A stretch of 64,000 bases of DNA from Leifsonia shinshuensis. GTDB taxonomy: Bacteria > Actinomycetota > Actinomycetes > Actinomycetales > Microbacteriaceae. The stretch spans positions 62,001-126,000 of the forward strand of contig NZ_JAHHZQ010000002.1 in NCBI RefSeq assembly GCF_022606355.1, written 5' to 3'. Below, piece by piece: positions 13,472 through 30,757 of this stretch. Position 1 is the first letter of the stretch, and each line of letters begins with the position of its first letter. The notes below the pieces were generated by a model, which did no database searches, was not told the DNA's origin, and saw only the letters and a list, made by a program, of their open reading frames with translations. The position numbers and the translations under genes were made by a program.

Positions 13472-14656
13472 TCAGCCCGCCGCCAACCGCACCGTCGACA
13501 GCGCTACGACCCGTGCGATGTCGGCGGCCATCCGCCTGCCCGCGTCGCCGGCGAACTGGTCGGCGCCGATGTCCGTGTGGAAGCCCCAGCCACCTGACCG
13601 CCCGACGCCGACCAGCGCACCAGGCGCCCGGCGCGTCGCGTTGCCGAAGTCGGTGGCGAAGGGCAGGGGCGACGGGTTCGTGTCCGGCTCGCGTCCCATT
13701 CCGCGGAACGCGTCGAGCACCCCTGCCGTGACCCGCTCGTCGGGCTGGATCGCCGCGATCGCGGTGCCGGACGTCCATACGGCCGTGGGGAAGAGCGCTC
13801 GCACCGCTTCGGCGAGCACGGCCGCGCCGTCCTCGGATTCATCGAAGACCAGGACGCGTACCGTGAGCGTGAGCCCAGACCCCTCCTCCACGTCTCCGTC
13901 GAGCACCGCCGATTCGACCATCACGCGGCCCGGGTCGAACCCGGCCAGCACCTCCCGCAGCGCGTCGAGCGCGAGAAACGGCGCGACCTCCGTGCCGGAG
14001 CGCAGAGTGCGCGAACCCGAGACGACAGCCGTCTCCCTGCGCATCCAGAGGCTCTCCTGCCAGACCGTGTCGATGAACTCGGGATGCGGATACAGCAGGG
14101 CGTCCAAGTCGTCGAAGACTCCGGCTGCTGCCGCGCGCGCCTTCCCGCTGCCGAGGGAGCGGGTGCCGGGCGAGTGGATCTCATCCGCGGGGGCGCCGAT
14201 CACGATCATGCGGCCCGTCCAGCGGGAGCGGATGGAGGCCAGGGCGAGCGCGGCTCCGACCACGCCGGCCGACTGCGGTCCGTGCCCGCAGGAGTGGACA
14301 GCGTCGTCGGTGCCGTCCGGTCGTTTGGCACACGCTGCGTCGTAGACGGCGATGATCCCGACGGCGCCGCCCGCCTCGACAGGCGCACCCTGACCGGCCG
14401 CAAGCCCGCCCGCGATCTCCGCCCGGAAGGCCGTCGGCATCCCGGCGATGCCTCGGACCACGGTCGCGCCGGCCGCCTCCAGCAGCCCGGTGATCGTCGC
14501 CGCAGCGAAGGCCTCCTGGTGCGCGAGCTCCGGATTCCCGTGGAGCTCGTCGATCACTGCCGCCATCGTCGGCGCCTGCCGGTCGACCGCCTTCAGGACC
14601 TCGTCGTCCGACAGGACCCGTCCACTGCGGGCGTCAGTCATCACCCGACCAGACAT
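13472..14656 (-). CDS. M20-family amidohydrolase/peptidase
   Basis: 394-residue metallo-amidohydrolase of the M20D type (aminoacylase, p-aminobenzoyl-glutamate hydrolase relatives). It shows ELHGNPELAHQE near 40-50, the metal loop HSCGHGPQSAG where most relatives have HACGHD, GAPADEIHSPG, and a C-terminal TDFGNATRRAPG. The change of the usual Asp after the third His to Gly may alter metal binding. It overlaps the IclR gene stop by 23 bases and is the last gene of the pyridoxamine/importer operon. It may hydrolyse an amide in that pathway. Start ATG 14656 versus 14641 is uncertain. Confidence 0.72.
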   Translation of the reverse strand: MSGRVMTDARSGRVLSDDEVLKAVDRQAPTMAAVIDELHGNPELAHQEAFAAATITGLLEAAGATVVRGIAGMPTAFRAEIAGGLAAGQGAPVEAGGAVGIIAVYDAACAKRPDGTDDAVHSCGHGPQSAGVVGAALALASIRSRWTGRMIVIGAPADEIHSPGTRSLGSGKARAAAAGVFDDLDALLYPHPEFIDTVWQESLWMRRETAVVSGSRTLRSGTEVAPFLALDALREVLAGFDPGRVMVESAVLDGDVEEGSGLTLTVRVLVFDESEDGAAVLAEAVRALFPTAVWTSGTAIAAIQPDERVTAGVLDAFRGMGREPDTNPSPLPFATDFGNATRRAPGALVGVGRSGGWGFHTDIGADQFAGDAGRRMAADIARVVALSTVRLAAG

Positions 14657-15413
14657 GCCGTTCCACGAGCGTGGCGAGCATCGCCTCGAAGTCGTTCGCC
14701 GCCGCCTTCACGGCGGCGTCCAGCTCCTCGTGCCGGTCGGCCACACGGTACGCCGGCGCGACGACGGACAGCGCGCCGATGAGTTGGCCGTGAGCGCGAA
14801 CCGGCGCGGCACACGCCCATACCCCCTCGTCGACCTCGCCGAAGCTCTCCGCGATCTCGTCGTCGAGGATCTGCGCGAGGTCCGTCTCGATCTTGGCGCG
14901 TTCATCTTCGGACAGCGGCGGAGTGAGCTTGTCGAAGTACTGCTTGCGTCGGGCGGAGGGATAGCCGGCGAGGAGCACCTTCGCCCCGGCGCCCTTGTGC
15001 AAGGGCATCACGTGGCCGGGCTGGAAGGAGATCGTGATCGCGTGATCGGAGTCCGAGATCGCCAGGCAGACCGCGGCGTCGTTGAGTCGACGCAGATAGA
15101 GCGCAGTCTCCCCCGTCGCCTCGCGCAGCTGGTCGAGGATCGGCTGAGCCTCCACCCGGTAGTCGAGGGTGCGCTCGGCCGCCTGGGCGAGCTGGAGGAT
15201 CTGCGGCGAGAGCACGTAGCGCCCCTTCGTGCGCTCTTCGATCAGGTACATCTCGCGCAGGAGCGAGATGTACCGGTAGGCGCTCGGCAGCGAGATGTCG
15301 TGAGCTTCGATCAACTCGTCCACCGTGAGCTCCGGCTTGGTCTGGCTGAACTGGAGAAGGATCTGCAACGCTCGCCGTGCGCTGTCGACCCCCTTCGTGC
15401 GCTGAACAGCCAT
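14634..15413 (-). CDS. IclR-family regulator of the vitamin B6 cluster
   Basis: 259 residues. N-terminal winged helix (TVDELIEAHDISLPSAYRYISLLREMYLIEER) then the IclR effector domain (ATGETALYLRRLNDAAVCLAI; GKGAGAKVLLAG-like MPLHKGAGAKVLLAGYPS). ATG 15413 follows AGGAAGGA. It lies 59 bases behind the pyridoxamine-pyruvate aminotransferase and is the only regulator inside the B6 block. It is therefore the best candidate for binding the four three-arm operators found at the block's promoters. That IclR relatives such as PcaU bind a palindrome plus a spaced direct repeat is from memory and fits the architecture. Confidence 0.85.
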   Translation of the reverse strand: MAVQRTKGVDSARRALQILLQFSQTKPELTVDELIEAHDISLPSAYRYISLLREMYLIEERTKGRYVLSPQILQLAQAAERTLDYRVEAQPILDQLREATGETALYLRRLNDAAVCLAISDSDHAITISFQPGHVMPLHKGAGAKVLLAGYPSARRKQYFDKLTPPLSEDERAKIETDLAQILDDEIAESFGEVDEGVWACAAPVRAHGQLIGALSVVAPAYRVADRHEELDAAVKAAANDFEAMLATLVERHVWSGDD

Positions 15414-15472
15414 TGAAGCATCCTTCCTGCCGAAGCGGGCGGCCCGTGCAGTATCCACCATCGCCCCGGGTC

Positions 15473-16651
15473 CTAACCGCGCTGCTCGCTGAGAACTGCC
15501 AACGCCGCGTCGACTCCGGCGCCGACGTTGACTTCCCACCCCATGTCCATCAGAGCTCGTCCGAGCGCGGAGATCCCCACGATCGGGAACAGGCCACTCG
15601 CCGTCGGCCCCATGTGGGCAATGCGAATGATGTTACCTGCACCCTGACCGCTGGACAACATGACCCCGTAGCGGTCTCGGACGTGCTTTCGCACCTGGAC
15701 GTCATCTAATCCGTCCGGGAGGGCCACCGACGTGACGCAGGCCGCGGCGATGTCGTCGGAGACGGGCCAGAGGTCGAGGCCCATGGCACGGACACCCGCG
15801 CGCGTCACCGCTGCCGAGGCGACGTGACGCGCGATCGCCGCGTCGACGCCTTCGTCGAGGATCTGGTCGAGGCAGGCTGCGAGACCATGCATGTCCGACA
15901 CCGACGGCGTGTACGGGAACGCCCCTCCGCCGAGCCACTTCTCCTTCCAGTCCAGCAGCGAGAGATACGAGGCGCGCGGTGCGCGCTCGTTGCGTCCGAT
16001 CGCGTCCCACGCCGCCGCGCTGACGGACACCAGCGCGACGCCAGGAGGGCCCCCGAGGCTCTTCTGGGCACCCGCTACGCAGATGTCCAGCCCCCACGCG
16101 TCGGTGCGGAACTCCATGCTGCCGACGCCGGAGACCGTGTCCACCAGGGTCAGCACACCGCGCTCCCGGCAGATCGGGCCGATGCGCGAGACGTCGCTCA
16201 CGGTTCCGGACGGCGTCTCCGACGCGACGACGGCGACCAGCTCGATCTCGGGATGCGCGTCCAGGTACTCAGCCACACGCTCCGGAGCGACGGCCTCGTT
16301 GTACGGCACCTCGATCTCGTGGAGCTCTGCGCCGAAGTCGCGCAGCCAATACCCCATCCCTTTGCCGAACACACCCTGCACCAGGTTGAGCACGGGCATC
16401 CCCTCGCGCACGAGCGATCGGGCGGCGCCCTCGAGCGCGACGATCGCTTCGCCCTGCATCAGCACGATGTCGTTGCGCGTCTCGAAGAGCTGCGCGACCT
16501 TGCGCTCCGTGGCGCGGAACAGGTCGAGGAACTCGGGGTCGTAGTGGTAAGTGATCGGCGAGCCGAGCGCGGCCAGTGTCTGTGCCGAGGCCACCGTGGG
16601 ACCAGCGGACAGGGTGAAGTCCAGCCTCGACATTGCGGCAGTGTTCGTCAT
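15473..16651 (-). CDS. Pyridoxamine-pyruvate aminotransferase (class V fold)
   Basis: 392-residue aminotransferase of the alanine-glyoxylate group. The expected reaction is pyridoxamine plus pyruvate giving pyridoxal plus alanine, in the cytosol. Lys197 in CVAGAQKSLGGPPG is the Schiff-base Lys. Glu68 (MQGEA) and Tyr35 (ITYHY) sit where I recall active-site residues in the Mesorhizobium loti enzyme, and APRASYLSLLDWKEKW and RIAHMGPTA also resemble it. Start ATG 16651 has GAGAGGTG upstream and overlaps the permease stop (ATGA). Neighbouring pyridoxal-degrading genes support the call over generic alanine-glyoxylate aminotransferase. Confidence 0.8.
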   Translation of the reverse strand: MTNTAAMSRLDFTLSAGPTVASAQTLAALGSPITYHYDPEFLDLFRATERKVAQLFETRNDIVLMQGEAIVALEGAARSLVREGMPVLNLVQGVFGKGMGYWLRDFGAELHEIEVPYNEAVAPERVAEYLDAHPEIELVAVVASETPSGTVSDVSRIGPICRERGVLTLVDTVSGVGSMEFRTDAWGLDICVAGAQKSLGGPPGVALVSVSAAAWDAIGRNERAPRASYLSLLDWKEKWLGGGAFPYTPSVSDMHGLAACLDQILDEGVDAAIARHVASAAVTRAGVRAMGLDLWPVSDDIAAACVTSVALPDGLDDVQVRKHVRDRYGVMLSSGQGAGNIIRIAHMGPTASGLFPIVGISALGRALMDMGWEVNVGAGVDAALAVLSEQRG

Positions 16652-17580
16652 CGTGCACCTCTCGTGTATGGAGCCCCCAGGACCGGGGAGATGTAGACGC
16701 TTCGGGCGAAGATGAGCAGCACGATCATCACGACGATGTACGGGAGCATCGAGATGATCTGCGGCGGGATGCTGATGCCGCCCAGTTGCAGGGCGGTGCC
16801 GAGAGCCTGAGTGAATCCGTACAGGGTCGAGATCGCGGCCACGACCCAGATGCGGCCGCGGGAGAGCATCGTGACGACGATGGCGATGTAGCCGACGCCT
16901 GCGGTCATGAACGGTGTGAATGCTCCCGTCGACAGCAGCGAAAGGTAGGCGCCGCCGATGCCGCTGAAGAAACCGCCGAGGAGGACGGCCTGCGAGCGCG
17001 TCTTCATCACTGACCCTCCCGCGGCGTCCAGCGACGACGGCTGCTGCCCGGCAGCCCGGATGGACAGCCCCCAGTTCGTCCGCGAGAGCAGGAAGGCCAC
17101 CGCCACGGCAAGCAGGATGGAGACCCAGAAAACCCCCGACTGGCTGAAGATCGACGAGCCGACCGCCGGGATGGCCGAGAGACCGGGGAGCTGCCACCGA
17201 TCCGGCGGGATGGACGGCTGACTCTGGCCGTAGGTGTTGTGGTAGAGCACGCTCGTGATGCCGCCGCCCGCGATGGTGATCGCGATGCCGAGAACGATCT
17301 GATTGAGCCCGAGCCAGACGTTCAGGACCATGAGGACGAGCGAGATGGCGATGCCGCCGATCGCGCCGCCGAGCATCCCGATCCAGATGCTGTGGCTGGC
17401 GATGGCGCACACGTAGCCCGTGTAGGCGCCGATCAGCATCATGCCCTCGATACCGAGGTTGAGGACCCCGGACTGCTCTCCGATCGTCTCGCCGACCGAC
17501 GCGAGCAGGAGCGGGATGGCCCCCGAGATGCACGCGATGATGAACGCCGAGAGGAACGACGCCGTGAGGAGCTCGCTCAT
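16648..17580 (-). CDS. ABC transporter permease, NupQ/YufQ-like
   Basis: 310 residues, eight or so membrane segments. GEQSGVLNLGIEGMMLIGAY is the signature of the second permease in BMP-type nucleoside importers. ATG 17580 overlaps the stop of the paired permease (ATGA), and its own stop overlaps the aminotransferase start, so the importer and enzyme are made from one message. In this setting the imported substrate may be a B6 vitamer rather than a nucleoside (inference). Confidence 0.85.
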   Translation of the reverse strand: MSELLTASFLSAFIIACISGAIPLLLASVGETIGEQSGVLNLGIEGMMLIGAYTGYVCAIASHSIWIGMLGGAIGGIAISLVLMVLNVWLGLNQIVLGIAITIAGGGITSVLYHNTYGQSQPSIPPDRWQLPGLSAIPAVGSSIFSQSGVFWVSILLAVAVAFLLSRTNWGLSIRAAGQQPSSLDAAGGSVMKTRSQAVLLGGFFSGIGGAYLSLLSTGAFTPFMTAGVGYIAIVVTMLSRGRIWVVAAISTLYGFTQALGTALQLGGISIPPQIISMLPYIVVMIVLLIFARSVYISPVLGAPYTRGAR

Positions 17581-18698
17581 GCGTGGACCTTCCTGCGGGT
17601 GAGGACGAGGGCCGGGCGGCGGAAGGCTTCCTTCAGCTCGTCCGGCAGATAGCTCTGGCCGAGGTCGAGCTTCGTCCCGACATACTCGGTGATGGTCATG
17701 AAGACGAGGATCAGGGCGACGATGACCATCAGGAAGTCCGTCGAGAGCCCCGCGTCGATGGAGGCCACCGTCCCGCCGGTGGCGAAGATCGAGTAGAACG
17801 CGATGAACGGGATCGATCCGACCGGACTCAGCCGGGCGAGGAAGACGAACGGCATGATCGTGGCGCCGTATCCCGGGTTCCAGTTGTTCCGCACGTAGCC
17901 CCATTGCCCGAGGATGTCCATGGACGCCGCGAGGCCGATCAGCGCACCGCTGATCAGGAACAGCACGATCGTCATCCACTTCGAGTTGATGCCCACGTGG
18001 CGAGCGGCCTTCGGGCTGGTGCCGAAGATGTCGAGCCGCAGCCCGAACGAGGTGCGGTTGAGGATGAACTGGAACACCACGGCGACGACCAGCGCGACGA
18101 TGAAGCCGATGTGGATCCGCGTGCCGGGGATGAAGGGGAGCATGTCGCCGGTGTCGAGCGTGCGCGTCTGCGGCGTCCGCTGGTTCGGGTCCTGGAAGAC
18201 GTACTCGATGAGAAGGCCGGTGAGGCCGACGCCGATGGACGACATCACCAGTGTGGTGATGATCTCATTGGTGCCGAACTGGGCCTTCAGCCACGCCGGC
18301 AGGAGAGTCCAGACGGCGCCGATCGCCATCGCGAGCAGGGTCAGTGCCAGATACGTGAGCCCGGGGCCGATCTGTTTCATCATCGTCGGGCCGAGTCCGG
18401 CGACGAACACCGCCGCGAGGAGGTACTGCCCGTCGTACCCGAGGTTCCAGAGCTGGCCCCGGAACACGACGATGAGCGCGACAGCGATGATCAGCAGCGG
18501 CGTCATCATGACCAGGCTGTGCTGCCAGTTGCCGTCCAGGACGCCGTTCTGGACGACGTCACCGTAGAACGCGAGCGGATCCTTGCCCAACGCGAGCAGG
18601 ATGAACGCAGCCGTGACCAGCGCGAGGATCACCGGGATGATCGCGCGGATGACGACGCTCGTGGACCTCCGTGCACGGCTCCGTTCAGTCGCCTGCAT
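17577..18698 (-). CDS. ABC transporter permease, NupP/YufP-like
   Basis: 373-residue permease, first of the BMP-type pair. The N-terminus is basic (RSRARRSTS), then about nine membrane segments; FRGQLWNLGYDGQYLLAAVF and FGTNEIITTLVMSSIGVGL are characteristic of YufP-like proteins. It overlaps the ATPase gene by 14 bases and the next permease by 4. Forms the channel with the NupQ-like subunit. Confidence 0.85.
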   Translation of the reverse strand: MQATERSRARRSTSVVIRAIIPVILALVTAAFILLALGKDPLAFYGDVVQNGVLDGNWQHSLVMMTPLLIIAVALIVVFRGQLWNLGYDGQYLLAAVFVAGLGPTMMKQIGPGLTYLALTLLAMAIGAVWTLLPAWLKAQFGTNEIITTLVMSSIGVGLTGLLIEYVFQDPNQRTPQTRTLDTGDMLPFIPGTRIHIGFIVALVVAVVFQFILNRTSFGLRLDIFGTSPKAARHVGINSKWMTIVLFLISGALIGLAASMDILGQWGYVRNNWNPGYGATIMPFVFLARLSPVGSIPFIAFYSIFATGGTVASIDAGLSTDFLMVIVALILVFMTITEYVGTKLDLGQSYLPDELKEAFRRPALVLTRRKVHA

Positions 18699-20292
18699 GA
18701 GTGCCTCCGATCATGTACTGCCCTACTTTCTCTGCGGTGTTCACGCCGTCGTTGTCGACCACCCCGACGATCTCGCCCTTGGAGATCACGCCGATCCGGT
18801 GCGAGAGCTCAACCAGTTCGTCGAGCTCGGTCGAGATCAGCAGCACCGCACCTCCGCCGGCCGCGAACTCGCGGAGCAGGTCGTGGACGAGCCGCACGGT
18901 CTTCAGGTCGAGCCCGTACGTGGGCTTGTTGACGACCACGACCTTGGCTCCGGGGGCGAGCTCCCTGGCGAGGAGGATCTTCTGGATGTTGCCGCCGGAG
19001 AGCGCGGCCGCCCGCGTCGACGGCGACGGCGTGCGGATCGAGTACTCGTCGATCAGACGCTTGGCCTCCGTGTTCACGGCCGACCTGTTGATCTGGCCGA
19101 ACCGCCAGAAGGGCGCCTTGCCGATGCGCTTGAGCACGAAGTTGAGCGCGACGCTGAGGTCGCACACCGTACCCTCGTGGAGGCGGTCGTCGGTGACGTA
19201 GCGCACGCCGAGCTCCTGCCGGTCGCGCACGCCGGTCCGGGTGATGTCCTCCCCCTCCAATCGCACGGCTCCCTGCACGGCGGCGCGCTGTCCCGCGACG
19301 ACCTCGGCGAGACCGGTCTGACCGTGCCCGTCGATGCCGGCGATCCCGAAGATCTCGCCCGACCGGATCCGCAGGCTCACGTCCTTGACCATGACATCGG
19401 TCGTGCGTCCAGAGGAGGTCACGTCGTCGAGCTCGATGACGACCGGGCGAGCGCTCAGATCGACCTGGGCGACTTCGCGCGTCGCCTCGGTCGCACCAGC
19501 GAGATCTGCGGCCTCGTCGAGCGTGCCGGCCTTCCGCAGGTCCTCGCCGAACATGGCTCGGAGGATCTCGGCCTGAGCCTGGTCCTCGTCGAGCTCCTTC
19601 ATCCGCTCGGGCGAGAGGAACCCCACCTTCTTGCCCGACCGGAGCACGGTGACGCAGTCCCCCATCGAGTACGCCTCCCGGAGCTTGTGGGTGATGAAGA
19701 CGACACCGAGTCCGCGTTCCGTGAGCCGGCCGATGCTCTCGGCGAGGTTCTCGATGGCCGACGGGGTCAACATCGAGGTGGGCTCGTCGAGGATCAGCAG
19801 CCGGCTGCCTTTCCACATCGCCTTGGCGATCTCGACCTGCTGCTGCTGGCCGAGTCCCAGGTCGCTCGCCAGCGTGCGCGGGTCGATCGAGATCCCGAGA
19901 AGCGCCGAGAGCTCGTCGAGACGCGAGCGGGCCTCCTTCTCCTTCAGCAGGAGCCCGGTCTCCCCGAGCATCAGATTCTCGATGACCGTCAGGCTCGGCA
20001 CGAGCGTCGAGTGCTGGTGGACCACGCCGATCCCGTGTCGCATGGCGATCTTGGGCGAGCCGATCGACACCGTCTCGCCGTCGATCGTGATGGTGCCAGA
20101 ATCGGGAAGCTGCATCCCGGCCAGGATGCTGATGAGGGTGGACTTGCCCGCTCCGTTCTCTCCGAGCAGGCAGTGCACCTGCCCCGAGACGAGGTCGAGC
20201 GAGATGTCGTCGTTGGCGACCACGCCAGGGAACGCCTTGGTGATGTTGTTGAGCGAGATGACGCCGGTCAGGGGCACGGTATCCGTGAGCAT
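18685..20292 (-). CDS. ABC transporter ATP-binding protein, NupO/YufO-like (two domains)
   Basis: 535 residues with two fused ATPase domains. The first has LLGENGAGKSTLISILAG and LGLGQQQQVEIAKAM; the second has a degenerate P-loop (GIDGHGQTGL) but a clear LSGGNIQKILLARELAP signature and VNKPTYGLDL in place of the usual DEPT. This asymmetry is normal for the sugar/nucleoside class. ATG 20292 has GGAGGACC upstream. It energises the two permeases and follows the binding lipoprotein. Confidence 0.88.
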   Translation of the reverse strand: MLTDTVPLTGVISLNNITKAFPGVVANDDISLDLVSGQVHCLLGENGAGKSTLISILAGMQLPDSGTITIDGETVSIGSPKIAMRHGIGVVHQHSTLVPSLTVIENLMLGETGLLLKEKEARSRLDELSALLGISIDPRTLASDLGLGQQQQVEIAKAMWKGSRLLILDEPTSMLTPSAIENLAESIGRLTERGLGVVFITHKLREAYSMGDCVTVLRSGKKVGFLSPERMKELDEDQAQAEILRAMFGEDLRKAGTLDEAADLAGATEATREVAQVDLSARPVVIELDDVTSSGRTTDVMVKDVSLRIRSGEIFGIAGIDGHGQTGLAEVVAGQRAAVQGAVRLEGEDITRTGVRDRQELGVRYVTDDRLHEGTVCDLSVALNFVLKRIGKAPFWRFGQINRSAVNTEAKRLIDEYSIRTPSPSTRAAALSGGNIQKILLARELAPGAKVVVVNKPTYGLDLKTVRLVHDLLREFAAGGGAVLLISTELDELVELSHRIGVISKGEIVGVVDNDGVNTAEKVGQYMIGGTHAGD

Positions 20293-20376: not shown

Positions 20377-21459
20377 TCACTTCGCGAGGATCTTGTCGAG
20401 CTGATCCTTCGTCTGCGCCTGGTCGACCTTGATCGCACCCGAGTTGATCTTCGTCGTCGCGTCCTTGACGGCGGACTTGATGTCGGAAGTCAGGTTCGGG
20501 GTGTCCTGCAGCAGCATCCCGCCGTTGGCCAGATCGAGGTTGTACGGCTTCTTCGCGTAGGTGCCCGCCTTGATGTCCTTGACGGCCTGCTCGTAGGTGC
20601 CGGTGAACGACCAGAGCGCAGAGGTCAGGAGGGCGTCCTTCGACGTGAAGAGGTCGGAGACGTCACCGATGTCGGCGATGTACTTGACCTTGTTGCCGGA
20701 CGCGTTGGCGTCGTTGACCGCCGCCACGTAGCCGACCGTTGCGCCGTCGCCCATGCCGAAGATGACATCGTCGCCCTTCGCGATCAGCTGCTGGACGATG
20801 GACTTGCCGCCCTTGGAGTCGTCGTAGCCGGCGGCCGAGATATAGGCCACGTCGATCTGGATGGCCGGATCGATGCTGCGAGCGCCCTGGGCGAAGCCGC
20901 CGGACATGGAGTACCAGTTCACGTCGTCGGCCGAGATGGCGACACCGAGCTTCTTCGACTGGGTGGTCTTGGCTGCGGCGATGCCGGCGAGGTACCCGAC
21001 TTGCTCGGCGCTGAAGGTGATGACGCCGACCTTTCCTGGCACCTGCTTGCTCGGGTAGTCGGTGACGAGCACGGGCACGCCGGTATTGGCCTGGGCCTTG
21101 GCCGCCGCGTCGCCGAAGCCGGAGGCGTGGGCGATGACGAATCCGACGCCGGACTTCTTGGCCGCCTGCTCGATGTTGGTCTCCGGGTTGTCGTAGCCGA
21201 CGTTCGGGTAGGAGTCGAGCTTGAGACCGAGGTTGTCCGCGGCCTCCTGGGCGTCCTTGAGGCCGACCTGGTTCCAGCCGTGGTCGGCTTCGGTGGCGGG
21301 CGTGACGATGGCCATGCGGCTGAACGACGCGCCTGTGCTTCCGGTCGTCGAACCGGCGCTCGTATCGTTGCCGCGACCCGAGCACGCCGCGAGTAGGGCA
21401 ACGACGGCGAGCGTCGAACCGGCCGCTAGGACCGTGCGCTTCAGAATGGAGCTGTGCAT
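20377..21459 (-). CDS. BMP-family substrate-binding lipoprotein (PnrA/BmpA class)
   Basis: 360 residues; signal peptide with lipobox LAAC, Cys near residue 26. The mature domain resembles BmpA/PnrA nucleoside binders: HGWNQVGLKDAQEAADNLG, NIEQAAKKSGVGFVIAHASGFG, VGYLAGIAAAKTTQ, VIFGMGDGATVGYVAAVN. First gene of a seven-gene minus-strand operon (binding protein, ATPase, two permeases, aminotransferase, IclR, M20). AGGAGAGG precedes ATG 21459. Because every downstream enzyme partner is B6-related, this may bind pyridoxine, pyridoxal or pyridoxamine (inference, not shown by residues). Confidence 0.85.
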   Translation of the reverse strand: MHSSILKRTVLAAGSTLAVVALLAACSGRGNDTSAGSTTGSTGASFSRMAIVTPATEADHGWNQVGLKDAQEAADNLGLKLDSYPNVGYDNPETNIEQAAKKSGVGFVIAHASGFGDAAAKAQANTGVPVLVTDYPSKQVPGKVGVITFSAEQVGYLAGIAAAKTTQSKKLGVAISADDVNWYSMSGGFAQGARSIDPAIQIDVAYISAAGYDDSKGGKSIVQQLIAKGDDVIFGMGDGATVGYVAAVNDANASGNKVKYIADIGDVSDLFTSKDALLTSALWSFTGTYEQAVKDIKAGTYAKKPYNLDLANGGMLLQDTPNLTSDIKSAVKDATTKINSGAIKVDQAQTKDQLDKILAK

Positions 21460-21562: not shown

Positions 21563-21578
21563 GAAAGGACGGTGGTCA

Positions 21579-22082: not shown

Positions 22083-22098
22083 CGCCTGACTCAGCCTC

Positions 22099-22154
22099 TT
22101 GACCAGGGCGGGTGATCTCTCATATGGTGAAGCAAATTTCACAACATGCGAGAA
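22099..22154 (+). promoter_or_regulatory. Promoter and three-arm operator, site 2 (4-pyridoxolactonase operon)
   Basis: A -35 candidate TTGACC (22099-22104) is 18 bases from a -10 candidate TATGGT (22123-22128). Operator arms CTCTCATA (22117-22124) and TGCGAGAA (22147-22154) stand exactly as far apart as the outer arms of site 1; the middle arm GGTGAAGC (22126-22133) is weak. The left arm overlaps the -10 region, so a bound regulator could block RNA polymerase. Confidence 0.55.
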
Positions 22155-22178
22155 ACTCGCCTGCAGAGAGGTGAAAAC

Positions 22179-22937: not shown

Positions 22938-22987
22938 GCGTCACCAACCCGTGAACGTCCCATAACGAAAGAGGAGAACCGCCCACC

Positions 22988-23716: not shown

Positions 23717-23719
23717 GCG

Positions 23720-25243
23720 ATGACCGGCACCGACGTCCTCATCATCGGCGCCGGCTCGGCCGGCAGCGTCCTGGCGGATCGGCTGAGCCGAGACCCCGAC
23801 CGCACGGTCACCGTGCTCGAGGCCGGCACGCGGATCACCGACCCGGACATGCGCCGCCCCGAGCTCTGGCCGTTCATCGACGGCCGGGACTACGACTGGG
23901 CCTACCGGACGACCCCCCAGCCGGGCCTGGCCGGGCGCTCGCTCGAATGGCCGCGCGGCAAGGGCATCGGAGGCTCCAGCAACCTGCACGCGATGGCGCA
24001 CATGCGCGGCTGTCGCGCCGACTTCCAGCGCTGGGTGGACGCGACGGGCGATCCGCGGTGGTCGTGGGAGGGGCTCCTTTCTGCGTTCGAACGGATCGAG
24101 TCCCGCCGGCCCGGTGAGCCCGGCCTGCCTGTCGTCGTGCCGGGTCCGGAGCTCAGCAGCCCGCTGGTGACCGACTACCTGAACGCCTGGGCAGGGCTCG
24201 GCGTCGACCGCATCGCGGATCACAACGGCGGCGAGATGATCGGGGCGACCCCGAACTCGCTGACGATCGCGGACGGGAGGCGTGTGACCGCCTCCGACGC
24301 CTTCCTCGATCCCGCGCTCGGCCGCCCCAACCTCCACCTCGTGGACCGTGCGACGGTGCACACCCTCGAGATCGATCGCGGGCGTGTGACCGGCGCGCGG
24401 TACGAGCGCGACGGACGGCTGGAGACGATCCACGCCGCCGTCGTCGTGCTCGCCTCGGGCGCCGTCGCCGATCCACTGCTCCTGATGCGCTCGGGCGTCG
24501 GCGACCCGGAGATCCTCCGCAGCGCAGGGGTGCCGGTCGTCGCGGAGACTCCCGGGGTCGGCGCGAACCTGCATGACCATCTCCTCGGCGCCGGCAACGT
24601 CTACCTCTCGGCGAAGACCGTCCCTCCCACGAGGCTCCAGCTCTCCGAGTCGATGACCTATCTGTCGGCCGCCGGGCTCGACGTCCGCACGGGGGCACCG
24701 GACATCGTGGTGGGCTGCGTCGTGGGCCCGAGCGCTTCCGAGGTGTATCGCGGCGAGCTCGCGGACGTGCCGGCCGGCGGCGCGTACACCCTTCTCTTCG
24801 GCGTCACGAACCCGACGAGCCGTGGTTCGCTGCGGATCTCGGGTCCGGACGTCGATGACGCACCCGTCATCGATCCGCAGTACCTCTCCACCGAGCACGA
24901 CCGCGCCCTGTTCCGCAGCGCGCTCGAGCACGCCCGGCTGGTCGGCGCCACGAACGCTCTGGCCGTGTGGCGCTCGGAGGAGCTGCTCCCGGGAGCCGGG
25001 GTGCAGAGCGCTGAGCGACTCGACGCCTTCATCCAGCGGGCCGCGATCACCCACCACCATCCTGTCGGCACGCTGCGGATGGGCGCTGAGGACGCCGCCC
25101 CGGTCACCCCTGGCCTCGCGCTGCGTGCCCTCGACGGCTGCTATGTCGTCGACGCGTCCGTGATCCCGTCGATCACAGCAGGACCGGTGCACGCGGCCGT
25201 CCTGGCGATCGCAGAGTCGTTCGCCGACACTTTCACGGACTGA
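23720..25243 (+). CDS. GMC flavin oxidase, probable pyridoxine 4-oxidase
   Basis: 507-residue GMC oxidoreductase. GAGSAG at 10-15 binds FAD; GKGIGGSSNLHAMAHMRG is the GMC signature 1 region; His447 (HHHPVGTLRMG) and His491 (ITAGPVHAAV) are the active-site pair. Expected reaction: pyridoxine plus oxygen to pyridoxal plus H2O2. M. loti has a second GMC enzyme for 4-pyridoxate oxidation at C5 and none is seen here, so this protein could instead, or also, do that step. ATG 23720 is four bases after the dehydrogenase stop. Ends before a strong terminator. Confidence 0.75.
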   Translation: MTGTDVLIIGAGSAGSVLADRLSRDPDRTVTVLEAGTRITDPDMRRPELWPFIDGRDYDWAYRTTPQPGLAGRSLEWPRGKGIGGSSNLHAMAHMRGCRADFQRWVDATGDPRWSWEGLLSAFERIESRRPGEPGLPVVVPGPELSSPLVTDYLNAWAGLGVDRIADHNGGEMIGATPNSLTIADGRRVTASDAFLDPALGRPNLHLVDRATVHTLEIDRGRVTGARYERDGRLETIHAAVVVLASGAVADPLLLMRSGVGDPEILRSAGVPVVAETPGVGANLHDHLLGAGNVYLSAKTVPPTRLQLSESMTYLSAAGLDVRTGAPDIVVGCVVGPSASEVYRGELADVPAGGAYTLLFGVTNPTSRGSLRISGPDVDDAPVIDPQYLSTEHDRALFRSALEHARLVGATNALAVWRSEELLPGAGVQSAERLDAFIQRAAITHHHPVGTLRMGAEDAAPVTPGLALRALDGCYVVDASVIPSITAGPVHAAVLAIAESFADTFTD

Positions 25244-25252
25244 GGACACGAA

Positions 25253-25290: not shown

Positions 25291-25295
25291 ACGTC

Positions 25296-25748
25296 CTACT
25301 TCTGGAACGTCCCCACGAGCCGCGCCTGTTCGATCACGCGGTCGCCGTAGCCCGCGAGGAACTCTTCGCGGGTCGGCGTCCCCGCGACCGGTGCCGAGAG
25401 GGCGTACACCCAGAAGTAGTAGTGGTGGATGCCATGGCCCTCCGGAGGCATCGGGCCGGTCCAGCCGGGTTCGCCGAGCCCGTTGGGTCCGATGCGCACG
25501 CTCTCGGCGTCGAGGTCGAGCGTTCCGCCGACAGCGGGGATGCCGTACACCGTCCAGTGCGTGAAGCCCTGAGGCAGCGGAGCGTCCGGGTCGTGGCACA
25601 CGAGTGCGAGCTCGACGGCGCCCTCCGGGACGCCGGAGACCGCGAGCGCGGGGACGCGGTTGGCACCGTAGCCGGAGTACTCCTCCGGAATGGCGGCGAG
25701 CGGAGCGAGGTCGGGACTGGATACGACGAGGTCAGCGAAGAGTGCCAT
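25296..25748 (-). CDS. YbhB/YbcL (PEBP-like) protein
   Basis: 150-residue phosphatidylethanolamine-binding-protein-like protein. VCHDPDAPLPQGFTHWTVYGIP and the HHYYFWVYAL stretch are the conserved ligand-pocket motifs of the family. ATG 25748 (AAGGACC upstream) overlaps the preceding hydrolase gene by 17 bases. It is the last gene of the ring-degradation operon. The family has no settled bacterial function; its place here is unexplained. Confidence 0.82.
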   Translation of the reverse strand: MALFADLVVSSPDLAPLAAIPEEYSGYGANRVPALAVSGVPEGAVELALVCHDPDAPLPQGFTHWTVYGIPAVGGTLDLDAESVRIGPNGLGEPGWTGPMPPEGHGIHHYYFWVYALSAPVAGTPTREEFLAGYGDRVIEQARLVGTFQK

Positions 25749-26595
25749 GGGGTCCTTCTGAGTCGAGGCTGAGCAGGTGTTCGATTTCGGAGGCCACGAG
25801 GGTCGCGTTCTCCTCGGGGACATAGTGGTCGGCAGAACGGTCGACGACCCAGCGGTCATGCGGCCGGGCAGCGACGGCCGCATTCCACGCCGAGTCGGTG
25901 GTGATGCGGCTGAGAGCGCCCCGAACGTGGGACATCGGCGCCGCGACCGAGACGAACTCGGCGTCCCACGGCTCGCGGAGGCCGTCGATGAGCTGGCGCA
26001 TGGCCGCCGGGTCGGCGAGCGGGGCCAACCGCCCCTCGCCATCGCGGCGGTAGCCCCAGCGCGCTCGGCGATCGACGGCGTCGGCCGGCAGCATCCGGTA
26101 GCGCTGCTGGAGGTATCGGCGGACGTCGTCCACAGTGTCGAACGAGCGGTTCCCCGCCTCCACGCGCACCAGGAGGTCGTCGAGCATACTCGGCTCGACC
26201 CACGGCGTGTAGTCGACCGCGAGCACTCCCGCGACCCGTTCGGGGAACAACGCCCCGGTGAGCCACGCATTGCGCGCCCCCAGAGAGTGCCCTGCGACGA
26301 GCGCACGGTCGATCCCGAGGGCGTCGAGCACCACGACCACATCGCCGGCGAAGTCCGGACCGCGGTAGCCGCTCGCCGGCTTGCCGCTGCGCCCGTGTCC
26401 CCGCTGGTCCAGCGAGATCACCCGCGCGCCCGGCTGGAGCCGATCGACGACGGGCTCCCACACCGCATGGTTCGCCGACGTGCCGTGGAGGAGCACGACG
26501 GCAGGGCCGTCGCCTCGCACCCGGAACGCCACCTCGACGGCGGCGCCCCGGGTGATGAGCATCCCGCCGGGGCCGGCCTCGACGGTGACCGCCAC
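25732..26595 (-). CDS. (E)-2-(acetamidomethylene)succinate hydrolase (alpha/beta hydrolase)
   Basis: 287-residue alpha/beta hydrolase. Ser104 (GHSLGA), Asp128 (AVDYTP) and His257 (SADHYVP) form the triad, with HGTSANH as oxyanion loop near 37. I recall the M. loti enzyme's triad as Ser106, Asp130 and His258, nearly the same spacing. It would split the ring-cleavage product into succinic semialdehyde, acetate, ammonia and CO2, the last step of B6 pathway I. The start is taken as GTG 26595, three bases after the dehydrogenase stop; its ribosome site is weak. Confidence 0.77.
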   Translation of the reverse strand: MAVTVEAGPGGMLITRGAAVEVAFRVRGDGPAVVLLHGTSANHAVWEPVVDRLQPGARVISLDQRGHGRSGKPASGYRGPDFAGDVVVVLDALGIDRALVAGHSLGARNAWLTGALFPERVAGVLAVDYTPWVEPSMLDDLLVRVEAGNRSFDTVDDVRRYLQQRYRMLPADAVDRRARWGYRRDGEGRLAPLADPAAMRQLIDGLREPWDAEFVSVAAPMSHVRGALSRITTDSAWNAAVAARPHDRWVVDRSADHYVPEENATLVASEIEHLLSLDSEGPHGTLR

Positions 26596-26597
26596 GG

Positions 26598-27533
26598 TCA
26601 GACCGGGGTGATGCTGGTCAGGGTCTTCAACGCGGCGACGAGACCGGCCGTGATGTCCTTGCGCTTCGCGTCGACCTCGCCGTCGGCGTAGTCGTACATT
26701 CCGCCATTGGTCTTGAAGCCGAGCTTGCCCGCGGCGACCATGTCGGTGACGACGGCAGGCGTCTCGGTGCTCGCGTCGAGCTCCTTGTTGAGATAGCTCG
26801 ACACTGCGCTGTAGATGTCGAGACCGGCCATATCGAGCAACCGGGTCGGGCCGATGACCGACAGCTTGTAGCCGATGCCCCACTTCACGCAGGTGTCGAG
26901 TCCCTCGGGGGTGACGATCCCCTCGTTCAGGAGCGCGACGCACTCGCGGAGGATCGCGTAAAGGACGCGGTTCTCGACGAAGCCGGCGATCTCCTTCTCT
27001 ACGACCGGGTTGTAGCCGAACGCCTCCACGATCTCGACGAGCTGGTCGGTGACCGCGGCGTCGGTCTGATCGCCGGGCACGACCTCGATCATCGGGATCA
27101 GGTGCGGGGGGTTCGACCAGTGCATCCCGATGAAGCGGCCCGGACGGGCGAGCGACGTGGACAGCGTCGAGATCGGGATTCCCGAGGTGTTGCTGGCGAT
27201 GATGACATCGTCGCCCACGTACTGCTCGATCTGAGCCAGAACGGACTGCTTCAGCTCGAGCTTCTCCGGGACGGCCTCGATGACGAATCGCGTGCCGTCG
27301 AGGGCCTCGGCGATGTCGGTGGTGAAGGAGACGGAGCCGCCCTCGGCCTTCGGGCCGCCGACCTGGTCGAGGACGGAGGAGGCGAACGTCGAGGAGGTCC
27401 GGGCGCGCTCGAGGGCGTCTGGGCTGATGTCGTACACGCGGACTTCTGCTCCGGCGCGGGCGAGGGTCGCGGCGATGCCGGGGCCCATGGTTCCCGAGCC
27501 GACGATGGTGGCAACAGCGGGAAGGCTGCTCAT
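26598..27533 (-). CDS. 5-Formyl-3-hydroxy-2-methylpyridine-4-carboxylate 5-dehydrogenase
   Basis: 311 residues of the 3-hydroxyacyl-CoA dehydrogenase family. VGSGTMGPGIA (11-21) binds NAD; IIASNTSGIPIS and GMHWSNPP follow, with catalytic His138 of the HWxNPP motif. The 3-hydroxyacyl-CoA relatives usually have HFFNPA-type motifs; the Trp variant and operon partners fit the M. loti pyridine enzyme, which oxidises the 5-aldehyde to the 4,5-dicarboxylate with NAD. AAAGGGAG precedes ATG 27533. An acyl-CoA or other hydroxy-acid role cannot be fully excluded from sequence. Confidence 0.78.
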   Translation of the reverse strand: MSSLPAVATIVGSGTMGPGIAATLARAGAEVRVYDISPDALERARTSSTFASSVLDQVGGPKAEGGSVSFTTDIAEALDGTRFVIEAVPEKLELKQSVLAQIEQYVGDDVIIASNTSGIPISTLSTSLARPGRFIGMHWSNPPHLIPMIEVVPGDQTDAAVTDQLVEIVEAFGYNPVVEKEIAGFVENRVLYAILRECVALLNEGIVTPEGLDTCVKWGIGYKLSVIGPTRLLDMAGLDIYSAVSSYLNKELDASTETPAVVTDMVAAGKLGFKTNGGMYDYADGEVDAKRKDITAGLVAALKTLTSITPV

Positions 27534-27594
27534 GATCGGTGCTCCCTTTCTTATGGTGTGTGCTGCTGGCTGCTGTGCGATGGTTTCGGTCTAT

Positions 27595-28356
27595 TCAGAC
27601 CTGCGCGATGCCGATGCCCTGCAACTGCTCGACGCGCTCGAGTTTCCGGTTGAAGTACATCCAGTAGTTGCGCTGCGCCTTGGGCGGGTAGATCCGGCGC
27701 TTCTTCTCGACCGTCTCGTCGTGATCGGGCAACGGATACGACACGCCCGCCTGCAGGAGGTCGAGCTGGAAGCGCGACGCCCACTCGAGGAAGATTCCGG
27801 CCAGAGTCGCTTCGATCACGTTGTCCCCGACGAAGGCGACGCCGTGATTGCGCAGCAGGATGGCCTCGGCGTCGCCGAGCTGCTTCGCGACCTCCTTGCC
27901 GAGTTCGACGGTCGTCACGATGTGACTGGTGTCGCTGAACCGCGGGACACCGTGCTCGGCGAACCACACGCCGTGGTTGTTGTACGGCCCGAGCTCCTGA
28001 TCCGTCGCACCGAGGACCGTCGCGTAGTGCGAGTGCGAGTGGCCGACGACGTTGACGTCCGGTCGGGCCAGCATGATCTCCGCGTGGAGCGGCCACTCGA
28101 GGTGACGGAGACCCGTGCCCTCGAGTACGTTCCCGTCGAAGTCGATGAGGATGAAGTCGTCCCCGACCACCTCCGACAGGGCGAGGTTGCCGCGTTTCAG
28201 CCACAGTCCGCGGCCGAACGGGTCGCGGTAGGAGAGGTGGCCCATGGACATGTCGCCGTGTCCCTCGAGCTCGAGGATGCGATGCGCGCGGGCGACGTCG
28301 TCGAGGGTGTTCGCGATCGACTCGTCCTCGTGATAGCGCGCGGGGGTGTACGTCAT
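27595..28356 (-). CDS. 3-Hydroxy-2-methylpyridine-4,5-dicarboxylate 4-decarboxylase (class II aldolase fold)
   Basis: 253 residues of the class II aldolase/adducin fold. Metal and catalytic residues are visible: Glu87 (RHLEWPLH), His91, the GHSHSHY cluster with His106/108/110, and NHG near 176. M. loti uses a protein of this fold to remove the 4-carboxylate of the pyridine dicarboxylate. AAGGAGAAC precedes ATG 28356. It sits directly upstream of the aldehyde dehydrogenase gene in the same operon, the order expected for successive steps. On fold alone, a sugar-phosphate aldolase would also fit; context decides. Confidence 0.78.
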   Translation of the reverse strand: MTYTPARYHEDESIANTLDDVARAHRILELEGHGDMSMGHLSYRDPFGRGLWLKRGNLALSEVVGDDFILIDFDGNVLEGTGLRHLEWPLHAEIMLARPDVNVVGHSHSHYATVLGATDQELGPYNNHGVWFAEHGVPRFSDTSHIVTTVELGKEVAKQLGDAEAILLRNHGVAFVGDNVIEATLAGIFLEWASRFQLDLLQAGVSYPLPDHDETVEKKRRIYPPKAQRNYWMYFNRKLERVEQLQGIGIAQV

Positions 28357-28390
28357 GCTTTCGTTCTCCTTCTCGTTGGATCGACCGTGG

Positions 28391-28999
28391 CTATGGCAAC
28401 CGGGGTGCGGACAGCTTCAGCAGCGCTTCCTCGCGCGTCAGGCCGCCGACGCGGTGGTGGACGCGCCCACGGCTGGCGACCGCGACGCAGATGAGCAGTT
28501 CGTCGGGGCGCGGTGCGTCGGCGAAGGTGACCGTGACGGCGTCGTAGTGCGAGCGCACGTAGAGGTCGTCCTTGAACGCGAGTGGGATGTCGATGGATGC
28601 ACCGGCCGACGCAGTCTTGGTCGCAGAAGAGATCCATGCCTCCCCACCGCCGACGGACTCGCGGAACGCGTCGCCGAACACGGTGGTCACGCACGCGACG
28701 ACATGGTCCTGCTCGCCGTTGACCCCGGCGATGCCACCCTTTCCGTAGCCTTCGACCGGGCGACCACCGAGGAGCGCGCGGGCCCTCGCGCCGAGCGCAG
28801 TGCCCAGGCTCGGGCTCGGCTTCGTCAGCGGGGAGAGGTCCTCGACATAGCGGCCGGCGAACGGGTTCTTGATCACCACGGCCGCGACCGCCTTGATCAG
28901 CGGTTCCTCCGCCGCGGGGCCGCCCTCGTGCACGACCTCCTGAGCGAAGGCGAACCACTCCCTGACCTCGTAGAACGGGTCGAGCTGGGGGAATGTCAT
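28391..28999 (-). CDS. Amino-acid-synthesis (AA_synth) family protein, unknown function
   Basis: 202-residue protein of what I take to be the AA_synth family. AVVIKNPFAGRYVEDL, GYGKGGIAGVNGEQDHVVAC and KTASAGASIDIPLAFKDD are strongly patterned and suggest a complete single domain. The family name does not describe a proven reaction. It is encoded between the decarboxylase and the ring-opening oxygenase of the B6 pathway with operon spacing, so it may process or stabilise an intermediate. ATG 28999 has AAAGGAA upstream. Confidence 0.65.
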   Translation of the reverse strand: MTFPQLDPFYEVREWFAFAQEVVHEGGPAAEEPLIKAVAAVVIKNPFAGRYVEDLSPLTKPSPSLGTALGARARALLGGRPVEGYGKGGIAGVNGEQDHVVACVTTVFGDAFRESVGGGEAWISSATKTASAGASIDIPLAFKDDLYVRSHYDAVTVTFADAPRPDELLICVAVASRGRVHHRVGGLTREEALLKLSAPRLP

Positions 29000-29033
29000 C
29001 GTTGGATTCCTTTCGGGGGAAGCGCGGACCGCT

Positions 29034-30206
29034 TCATCGGGCGACGACGTCGTCATGTCGGCGCGGGTCTGTCGGGTCGTAGAGCGCGGTTTCATTGTTC
29101 TCTCCCACGAACTGGCCGCCTTTCGACATGCCGCGGGTGTCCGCGTAGCGCTGCGACCGGGTCTGGCAGCGGTCGGTGTACGGTCGCTCGATGCGCTCCC
29201 ACTCGACCAGGGCGTCCGGGATGTCGCCCGTCGATGCGGCGGACGCCGCTTCGGCGACGGTGTAGGCGTTCATCATGGCGCAGCCGCCACCCTGGGCGAG
29301 AGCAGGAGCCATGGCATGTGCGGCGTCACCGACGAGTGCCACGCGACCGCGCGTCCATTGCTCGAGGCGGTTGGTCTGGTAGCGGAAGTACTTGCCCTCG
29401 ATCCCGGCCGCCTTCTTCAGCACGGGCGTGAGCTGCGGGTGGATGGACGTCCACACGTCGAGGTTGATCGTCGGGACCGCAGAGCCCTCCGCGTCATCCG
29501 CCGGGGCCATCAGTGCGATGTACAGCTCACGGTCGTTCGCCGGGGTGTAGAGCACACGGAGTACGCGCGGCTCCAGGTTCCAGAAGTCGATGACGTTGTC
29601 CCACTCCGTGTCCGGCTCGATGGCCTGCAGTTCCTCCTTGCACCGGGGAACGAGGAACCGGGTGATCCCGTCGCGGGCCTGGTGCCGTTCGTAGCGGATG
29701 TCGAGGGAGTCCCGCACCGCGGAGCCGACGCCGTCGGCACCGATGACCAGGTCGCCGGAGACCTCGCTGCCGTTCGCGAGGCGGAGAGTGCCGGCATCAC
29801 GCGCCTCCACCACTTCGGAGCCGGTGACGATCTCGACGCCTTCCCTGATCGCCGCCGACGACAGCACCGAGTGCAGGAACGGCCGCGTCATGGTGCGCCA
29901 CGGGATGCCCGGCACGTCCTCGTCCGAGACGATCCGGTTCTGCATCCGCGTCTCGTAGAAGGGCGGCCGCATGGAGCCGCGTTCGATCTCTTCGGTGAGA
30001 CCGAACGCGTCGAGGATGCGAAGCGTGTTGTTCCAGAGGACGATGCCTGCGCCCTGCTCCCGGAGTTCGAGGCCCTTCTCGTGCACGCGGACGGACCAGC
30101 CCCGACGTGCGAGGGCGATCGCCGCGGTCAGACCGGCGAATCCCGCTCCGGCGATCTCGGCGTGCCGGGCGCTGCCCTGGCCCCGAACTTCTGTCTGGTG
30201 TTCCAC
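29034..30206 (-). CDS. 2-Methyl-3-hydroxypyridine-5-carboxylate oxygenase (ring-opening FAD monooxygenase)
   Basis: 390-residue class A flavoprotein hydroxylase. GAGFAG (20-25) binds FAD, GADGVGSAVRDS is the DG motif, and VALVGDAAHAMAPALAQG is the GD motif. Stretches such as ELREQGAGIVLW, PPFYETRMQNRIVS, EWDNVIDFWN, GCAMMNAY, and the TDRCQ and MSKGG segments near the C-terminus resemble the M. loti oxygenase as I remember it. That enzyme hydroxylates and opens the pyridine ring to acetamidomethylene-succinate with NAD(P)H and O2. Start is GTG 30206 with GGAGG four bases upstream. It is the first gene of a six-gene operon. Confidence 0.87.
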   Translation of the reverse strand: MEHQTEVRGQGSARHAEIAGAGFAGLTAAIALARRGWSVRVHEKGLELREQGAGIVLWNNTLRILDAFGLTEEIERGSMRPPFYETRMQNRIVSDEDVPGIPWRTMTRPFLHSVLSSAAIREGVEIVTGSEVVEARDAGTLRLANGSEVSGDLVIGADGVGSAVRDSLDIRYERHQARDGITRFLVPRCKEELQAIEPDTEWDNVIDFWNLEPRVLRVLYTPANDRELYIALMAPADDAEGSAVPTINLDVWTSIHPQLTPVLKKAAGIEGKYFRYQTNRLEQWTRGRVALVGDAAHAMAPALAQGGGCAMMNAYTVAEAASAASTGDIPDALVEWERIERPYTDRCQTRSQRYADTRGMSKGGQFVGENNETALYDPTDPRRHDDVVAR

Positions 30207-30216
30207 AGGACCTCCA

Positions 30217-30254
30217 TTATTACAATGTGAGACACGATTATCGATCTACGAGAT
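30217..30254. promoter_or_regulatory. Three-arm operator, site 3 (ring-degradation operon)
   Basis: Arms TTATTACA (30217-30224), TGTGAGAC (30226-30233) and TACGAGAT (30247-30254), in the same register as site 1 (offsets 0, 9 and 30). It starts 11 bases upstream of the oxygenase start codon. Confidence 0.6.
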
Positions 30255-30334
30255 CGTGTACCCAACCTAGTGGCAAGAGCGGTCCAGGAGAAGACCCCGA
30301 CACTTTTCTTGCCCCGTGGCGCGATCTGGGCGTA

Positions 30335-30757
30335 TCAGCCCTCGGCGCCTCGGACACCCTCGTCGTCGTACGCATCGACCGTCGGCCGAAGCGGGTCGAT
30401 GCCGACGACGTCCTGCCACGCACCGACACCCCACTGGAAGGCGACGACACCGGCTTCGGGCAAGGCGATCTCGATCGCCTCGAGGATCTCCTGGGGCGAG
30501 AGGCCGATTTCGAGCGCGACGCGGATGTGACTGCGAAGCTGGGGCAACGGCGCGCGCATGACCGTGAGGCTGAGGATGAACAGCAGCTCCTTGGTCTGCC
30601 GCGACAGCGTGCGCGGCGTGAGATAGGCGGCCTCCACGACCGTATTCGCCGCCTGCAGTATCGGGAAGTCCGCCGCCGCCATCACCTTGTGGTAGTCGAG
30701 CACGTAGCCGCGCTCGACGACCATCCGGTCGATGTACTTCTGCGCATCATCAGCCAC
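30335..30757 (-). CDS. Carboxymuconolactone decarboxylase-family protein
   Basis: 140-residue helical protein of the CMD/AhpD superfamily. LSRQTKELLFILSLTVMRAPLPQLRSHIRVALEIG is the conserved region around residues 54-88 (seen in two halves), but it has no Cys pair, so it is more like a true decarboxylase or lactone enzyme than a peroxidase. GTG 30757 with AAGGGATGG upstream is preferred to GTG 30775, which has no ribosome site and abuts operator site 4. It lies just upstream of the ring-degradation operon and carries its own operator, so it is likely co-regulated. Its step in B6 breakdown is unknown. Confidence 0.72.
   Translation of the reverse strand: MADDAQKYIDRMVVERGYVLDYHKVMAAADFPILQAANTVVEAAYLTPRTLSRQTKELLFILSLTVMRAPLPQLRSHIRVALEIGLSPQEILEAIEIALPEAGVVAFQWGVGAWQDVVGIDPLRPTVDAYDDEGVRGAEG

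Follow-up and report, generated by a model that had tools for sequence, protein, structure and literature searches.

A putative vitamin B6 degradation gene cluster was studied in Leifsonia shinshuensis (genome size 4.78 Mb), located in a stretch of 64,000 nucleotides (the window; contig NZ_JAHHZQ010000002.1, positions 62,001 to 126,000), whose protein relatives are actinobacterial. The cluster is laid out in three strand blocks (minus, 21459-13472; plus, 21579-25243; minus, 30206-25296), within which neighbouring genes overlap or lie about 100 bases apart at most. In order of transcription, the first block encodes a BMP substrate-binding protein, an ABC ATPase, two permeases, an aminotransferase, an IclR regulator and an M20 hydrolase; the second a lipoprotein, a lactonase, an SDR protein and a GMC oxidase; and the third an oxygenase, an AA_synth protein, a class II aldolase-fold protein, a 3HCDH-family enzyme, an alpha/beta hydrolase and a PEBP protein. 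The G+C content of the cluster (0.678) shows no contrast with that of the window (0.681). An earlier, sequence-only reading had described eight pathway enzymes in two facing blocks; all eight open reading frames (ORFs) were found where it placed them, on the strands and with the folds it gave, and the division into blocks was corrected to three. The importer, IclR, AA_synth, PEBP and lipoprotein genes, and the identification of 4-pyridoxate dehydrogenase as the absent step, are additions to that reading.

Seven of the eight enzymes, when compared with 177,635 distinct sequences of the PDB, had a Mesorhizobium loti enzyme of B6 pathway I as their best match. The GMC protein matched pyridoxine 4-oxidase (4ha6) with 517 bits (best other, 237), the SDR protein pyridoxal 4-dehydrogenase (3ndr) with 244 bits (best other, 191) and the lactonase 4-pyridoxolactonase (3aj3) with 268 bits (best other, 127), with the HxHxDH motif visible in the alignment. 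For the aminotransferase, the best match was 2z9u at 336 bits (next, 128), which is labelled aspartate aminotransferase in the PDB and which we take to be pyridoxamine-pyruvate aminotransferase (PPAT), a name that agrees with NF046070. The oxygenase, 53% identical to that of M. loti, matched the 2-methyl-3-hydroxypyridine-5-carboxylate (MHPC) oxygenase 3alm with 398 bits (best other, 97), the 3HCDH enzyme FHMPC 5-dehydrogenase (4om8) with 300 bits (best other, 152), and the alpha/beta hydrolase, in which the GHSLG motif is visible, 2-(acetamidomethylene)succinate (AAMS) hydrolase (3kxp) with 174 bits (next, 66). The exception was the class II aldolase-fold protein, whose best match was 8iqa (76 bits; entry title, pyruvic oxime dioxygenase), with the pathway decarboxylase 2z7b at 55 bits; it is only 30-32% identical to the M. 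loti decarboxylase, though the two are reciprocal best matches.

The step-by-step correspondence with M. loti that had been claimed thus holds, by best PDB match, for seven enzymes and is loose for the eighth. The gap between each of the seven and its next family bears out the argument that such a set is very unlikely to have come together by chance, and the best characterised matches of the oxygenase, the lactonase and the aminotransferase, on which the claim had been staked, all lie in B6 pathway I. The assignment to B6 metabolism is further strengthened by NCBIfam, where the lactonase and the pyridoxal dehydrogenase pass their equivalog cut-offs, as do three of the four importer subunits (substrate-binding protein, ATPase and permease 2) for the putative B6 ABC transporter. 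The aminotransferase reached 411 bits against NF046070, below the cut-off of 600. In the four actinobacterial PPAT-like proteins aligned, the position aligned with M. loti Arg336 is occupied by Gln; Tyr, Glu, Lys and a second Arg, presumably active-site residues, are kept. Relatives of the aminotransferase (64-67% identical) occur in three of five flanks (L095, L096, L098) and were not found in L094 and L097.

Table 1. Features of the cluster in the window; names denote predicted functions. Bit scores are given with the NCBIfam cut-off where one applies.
Feature	Position	Strand	Basis or remark
M20-family amidohydrolase/peptidase, accessory	13472..14656	-	PF01546
IclR-family transcriptional regulator	14634..15461	-	PF01614/PF09339; start 15461 picked by overlap
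PPAT-like class V aminotransferase	15473..16651	-	2z9u match; NF046070 below cut-off
B6-type ABC importer permease 1	16648..17580	-	NF047928, 334 bits, cut-off 465 (below)
B6-type ABC importer permease 2	17577..18698	-	NF047929, 486 bits, cut-off 400 (above)
B6-type ABC importer ATP-binding protein	18685..20292 (ORF to 20352)	-	NF047930, 788 bits, cut-off 670 (above)
BMP-family substrate-binding protein, B6-type importer	20377..21459	-	NF047927, 440 bits, cut-off 400 (above); PF02608
Small putative lipoprotein	21579..22082	+	Occurs with upper-pathway genes
4-Pyridoxolactonase	22179..22937	+	3aj3; NF047925, 428 bits, cut-off 325 (above); ATG 22179 lies inside ORF 22146-22937
Pyridoxal 4-dehydrogenase, SDR type	22988..23716	+	3ndr; NF047923, 383 bits, cut-off 325 (above)
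Pyridoxine 4-oxidase, GMC family	23720..25243	+	4ha6; tree clade
PEBP/YbhB-family protein	25296..25748	-	PF01161
AAMS hydrolase	25732..26601	-	3kxp; 26601 is CTG, first ATG 26562
FHMPC 5-dehydrogenase-type enzyme, 3HCDH family	26598..27533	-	4om8; NF042925 below cut-off
Class II aldolase-fold enzyme, candidate HMPDC decarboxylase	27595..28356	-	Far diverged from the rhizobial one
AA_synth protein (PF06684, DUF1185)	28391..28999 (ORF to 29095)	-	PF06684, 214 bits
MHPC ring-opening oxygenase	29034..30206	-	3alm; tree

Scanning genome contigs with an alignment of the window and M. loti oxygenases turned up 91 relatives; the analysis went on with the best 80 as loci. They comprise 23 actinobacterial loci, 52 loci with a true oxygenase from Alphaproteobacteria or unnamed Pseudomonadota (here called alphaproteobacterial) and 5 weak homologues, and none of these classes includes the window. 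Several of the 23 actinobacterial loci end at contig ends; 21 show both the aldolase-fold and the FHMPC dehydrogenase genes. A tree of 49 oxygenases placed the actinobacterial sequences, that of the window among them, in one group of 23 (support 99/97), next to 21 proteobacterial sequences that likewise grouped together (100/99). Among 396 sampled genomes of the window's order, the oxygenase gene was detected at E<=1e-50 in the host genome only, indicating that the cluster is rare and patchy in this order.

The rhizobial core, present in 48 of the 52 alphaproteobacterial loci, consists of AAMS hydrolase, oxygenase, AA_synth, PEBP, decarboxylase, the GMC-type 4-pyridoxate dehydrogenase and FHMPC dehydrogenase. 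Two actinobacterial arrangements were distinguished, A1 and A2, which are labels and not clades, the oxygenase of the A2 locus L012 falling among A1 rows in the tree. The A1 core comprises oxygenase, AA_synth, aldolase-fold protein, FHMPC dehydrogenase, AAMS hydrolase and PEBP, to which lactonase, SDR and B6-type importer genes are added; members are the window, Herbiconiux, Microbacterium, Salinibacterium, Subtercola, Glaciibacter and others. In A2 (L012, L018, L019, L021, L022, L023, L026 and L029; in L018 the core is seen in part, up to the contig end), an A1-type core lies behind a different ABC importer, whose binding protein carries an NMT1 domain (by domain scan in L021, by clustering in the others). 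A related importer, 51-57% identical to the Streptomyces one, is found in the cluster of M. loti CJ3sym (L044). Genome-wide searches of all eight A2 genomes revealed neither a lactonase nor a pyridoxine oxidase ortholog (one 35% match in each search); for the SDR protein, the search covered the A2 flanks.

The clearest departure from the rhizobial pathway concerns the oxidation of 4-pyridoxate. In rhizobia, this compound is converted to the dicarboxylate by a separate 4-pyridoxate dehydrogenase followed by FHMPC dehydrogenase. A GMC gene between the decarboxylase and FHMPC dehydrogenase genes was present in 48 of the 52 alphaproteobacterial loci and in none of the 23 actinobacterial ones; from its position and the gene order of the M. 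loti pathway, we take it to be the 4-pyridoxate dehydrogenase (mlr6792 type), and the L044 copy served as query. No ortholog was found in the cluster or elsewhere in the host genome, where the matches were the pyridoxine oxidase of the window (37%) and two further GMC proteins (36% and 34%). Among 16 actinobacterial genomes searched (that of L018 left out), 5 gave no match at E<=1e-40 and 11 gave matches of 35-45%, while in the control two Mesorhizobium genomes returned 100% (the query itself) and 93%, plus paralogs of up to 45%.

A tree of 37 GMC proteins separated the 4-pyridoxate dehydrogenases (9 members) from the pyridoxine oxidases (15 members including that of the window), each clade having 100/100 support. 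Seven GMC proteins encoded elsewhere in actinobacterial genomes, the host included, fell outside the 4-pyridoxate dehydrogenase clade (two further matches, G434 and G422, were left out of the tree). Taken together, the missing gene and the tree imply that 4-pyridoxate oxidation seems to proceed differently in actinobacteria. The description of pathway I as nearly complete passes over a systematic absence at this step. Within A1, the pyridoxine oxidase was not found in L016 (a metagenome-assembled genome of 1.3 Mb), L025 and L028, nor in these genomes as a whole at E<=1e-60. In Microbacterium sp. Se63.02b (L013 15598-17165), the pyridoxine oxidase match is spread over two reading frames, so that this gene may be broken or the sequence in error.

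From homology, gene content, phylogeny and conserved motifs, we consider it likely (probability about 0.8) that the cluster takes up B6 vitamers and breaks them down to succinic semialdehyde by an actinobacterial variant of pathway I chemistry; each activity, the substrate of the importer and what the AA_synth, PEBP, M20 and lipoprotein genes contribute are predicted on this basis. The BMP-type ABC system would import the vitamers. Pyridoxal would arise from pyridoxine through the GMC oxidase and from pyridoxamine through the class V aminotransferase; the SDR would yield 4-pyridoxolactone, and the lactonase would open it to 4-pyridoxate. The 3HCDH enzyme would then oxidise the 5-hydroxymethyl group in two steps to the 4,5-dicarboxylate (HMPDC), from which the class II aldolase-fold protein would strip the 4-carboxylate to give MHPC. 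Ring opening by the FAD oxygenase would produce AAMS, and the alpha/beta hydrolase would release succinic semialdehyde, acetate, ammonia and CO2, with AA_synth and PEBP probably assisting at or after ring opening. The established steps follow PMC6253932, PMC3538738 and what is generally known of the M. loti pathway.

Within 10 kb flanks, the only oxidoreductases common to the A1 and A2 clusters are the FAD oxygenase and the 3HCDH-family FHMPC dehydrogenase, and we put at even odds that the latter carries out both two-electron oxidations from 4-pyridoxate to the dicarboxylate. As 3HCDH is an alcohol dehydrogenase family, it makes chemical sense for a single enzyme to take an alcohol through the aldehyde to the acid (compare histidinol dehydrogenase); the M. 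loti FHMPC dehydrogenase is reportedly a dismutase, which would mean that 4-pyridoxate is already handled in one direction. The Ser and His that we assume to be the catalytic residues of the family are kept. The window protein is 49% identical to that of L044 and scores 390 bits against NF042925 (cut-off 500), the L044 protein reaching 557. Between the actinobacterial (22 rows) and proteobacterial (48 rows) FHMPC dehydrogenases, 21 positions differ while being at least 90% conserved within each group, including Ala87/Asn, Asn115/Asp and Arg231/Ala. Ala87 and Asn115 also occur in 8 of 12 ordinary 3HCDH rows aligned (two rows have the same sequence), and the differences are no more than suggestive.

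The lack of lactonase and pyridoxine oxidase in A2 genomes implies that their FHMPC dehydrogenase probably meets imported 4-pyridoxate, a B6 waste product excreted by animals, and on the simplest reading the A2 set imports this compound. It can be tentatively proposed, at somewhat less than even chance, that in actinobacteria the NAD-dependent 3HCDH enzyme alone performs the four-electron oxidation of 4-pyridoxate to HMPDC in place of the flavoenzyme, and that certain Streptomyces, Georgenia, Arthrobacter and others are dedicated 4-pyridoxate scavengers. Less certain is the attached suggestion that AA_synth (PF06684) and PEBP catalyse a so far overlooked reaction, either in ring opening or at the stage of the enamine/formylsuccinate. 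As one rhizobial enzyme is lacking and another far diverged, the cluster probably conceals an enzyme step not recognised before.

The pathway could also be an ordinary pathway I in which an unrelated or distant dehydrogenase encoded elsewhere acts on 4-pyridoxate, leaving FHMPC dehydrogenase with the aldehyde oxidation only. The two other GMC proteins of the host, and those at 39-45% in Arthrobacter, Georgenia and one Streptomyces genome, would be candidates for it; they lie, however, outside the 4-pyridoxate dehydrogenase clade, 5 of 16 genomes lack such a GMC protein at E<=1e-40, and the flanks hold no extra oxidoreductase shared by A1 and A2, so that we regard this arrangement as quite conceivable but lean against it. 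It is improbable that a different substituted pyridine is the substrate of the lower operon and that the aldolase-fold protein works there as an iron dioxygenase instead of a decarboxylase. This protein is indeed tied to pyruvic oxime dioxygenase by its fold and best PDB sequence match, and lower operons exist without upper-pathway genes; yet upper B6 genes and a B6-type importer stand in the same cluster here, the oxygenase and FHMPC dehydrogenase match the M. loti enzymes far above all else in the PDB, and the aldolase-fold protein and the rhizobial decarboxylase find each other as best matches.

Pathway II, which runs via isopyridoxal and 5-pyridoxate, must be considered as well. PMC3538738 reports this route for an actinobacterium, Arthrobacter Cr-7. 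The first-step enzymes of the window are, however, orthologous to the 4-oxidase, 4-dehydrogenase and 4-pyridoxolactonase, and FHMPC dehydrogenase and the decarboxylase-fold enzyme are members of pathway I, which makes this alternative very remote.

The AA_synth and PEBP genes are constant companions of the pathway. At 66% identity to the M. loti L044 protein, AA_synth ranked top of the eight protein pairs compared. AA_synth, FHMPC dehydrogenase and the aldolase-fold protein are each present in 21 of the 23 actinobacterial loci, PEBP in 18 (and in 51 of the 52 alphaproteobacterial loci) and AAMS hydrolase in 19 (and in 52 of 52). At the thresholds set, none of the five weak-oxygenase loci has AA_synth, FHMPC dehydrogenase, the aldolase-fold protein or AAMS hydrolase.

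Compared with the known pathway I of M. loti MAFF303099 and Pseudomonas MA-1, relatives of seven enzymes are found here, and the rhizobial cluster also has AA_synth and PEBP genes. The window differs in lacking 4-pyridoxate dehydrogenase, in its decarboxylase, in gene order, in the added lipoprotein and in its regulator, of IclR type here and of GntR/FCD type in L044. Microbacterium luteolum, an actinobacterium known for B6 oxidation, has a pyridoxine 4-oxidase of the same name as that predicted here. The expression of its B6 enzymes by 2004 is recorded in PMC2642769, where a reference title describes its pyridoxal 4-dehydrogenase as an unusual aldo-keto reductase, whereas that of the window is an SDR. 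Relative to the putative B6 ABC transporter family (NF047927-NF047930), permease 1 of the window falls below the cut-off (334 against 465 bits) and the other three subunits lie above theirs. The PF06684 structures BB2672 and SPO0826 are tied to branched-chain amino-acid genes in PMC2954203, whereas here the family occurs in B6 clusters.

Pathway I, its M. loti enzymes, B6 oxidation in Microbacterium luteolum and the putative importer family are thus already known, and NCBI models exist for several of the proteins. The new elements, as far as the literature found shows, comprise a pathway variant in actinobacteria that lacks 4-pyridoxate dehydrogenase, the A2 set, AA_synth and PEBP as constant companions, and the lipoprotein. 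Clusters for pathway I-type B6 breakdown are found across many actinobacterial genera, where their make-up differs, and a pathway usually held to be solved shows one absent step, one probable replacement and two conserved proteins. Some actinobacteria are suggested to live partly on 4-pyridoxate, candidate families of B6 and 4-pyridoxate importers are supplied, and a role at the ring-opening stage, if true, would give PF06684 a biochemical function.

The small lipoprotein is present in 10 loci (the window, L010, L011, L013, L014, L017, L024, L027, L028 and L031), with a lipobox-like N-terminus and the cysteine motifs CWxPS, CRxHY, CxG and CYxW in all ten copies. The window copy had no Pfam or NCBIfam match, and 20 of 391 other genomes of the order yielded matches, all of them weak (at most 24 bits) and mostly to the N-terminal part. 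Relatives of the M20 hydrolase (338-368 bits) occur in 6 of the 23 actinobacterial loci (L010, L011, L015, L017, L024 and L027).

Relatives of the IclR regulator, 60-62% identical, stand beside the PPAT or permease 1 gene in four of the five flanks (L094-L097). In 10 of 13 loci (not in L016, L025 and L086), TCTCATA was found 18-19 bases downstream of a TTGAC box and at most 110 bases from the lactonase, with about 0.003 such pairs expected per stretch of this kind. The pair, located at about 22099-22124 in the window, is taken as a conserved promoter and perhaps an IclR operator. By eye, a TATGAGAA-like partner often follows further on. The near-palindrome CACANTGT(G/A) has two sites only in the window, one (21529) preceding the importer/lipoprotein pair and the other (30221) the oxygenase operon. 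Picked after both promoters had been inspected, this motif is a lead and no test, and perhaps likewise a candidate IclR operator. In three relatives (L013, L014 and L031), TCACAATGTG lies 626-728 bases upstream of the lactonase; the same three have an extra hydrolase gene after PEBP, the L014 copy being a PF04909 amidohydrolase, and other clusters have an M20 hydrolase gene next to the oxygenase.

Three further clusters (L042 4039-10704, L070 5691-12304 and L081 5663-12261) contain AAMS hydrolase, an ABC importer, oxygenase, AA_synth, PEBP and a regulator only, the binding protein of L042 being of NMT1 type; their hosts perhaps feed on MHPC or on some similar hydroxypyridine carboxylate. Adjoining the cluster in the window (30949-35470), genes for a beta-lactamase-fold protein, a GH32-type glycoside hydrolase and ABC permeases form an apparently unrelated locus.

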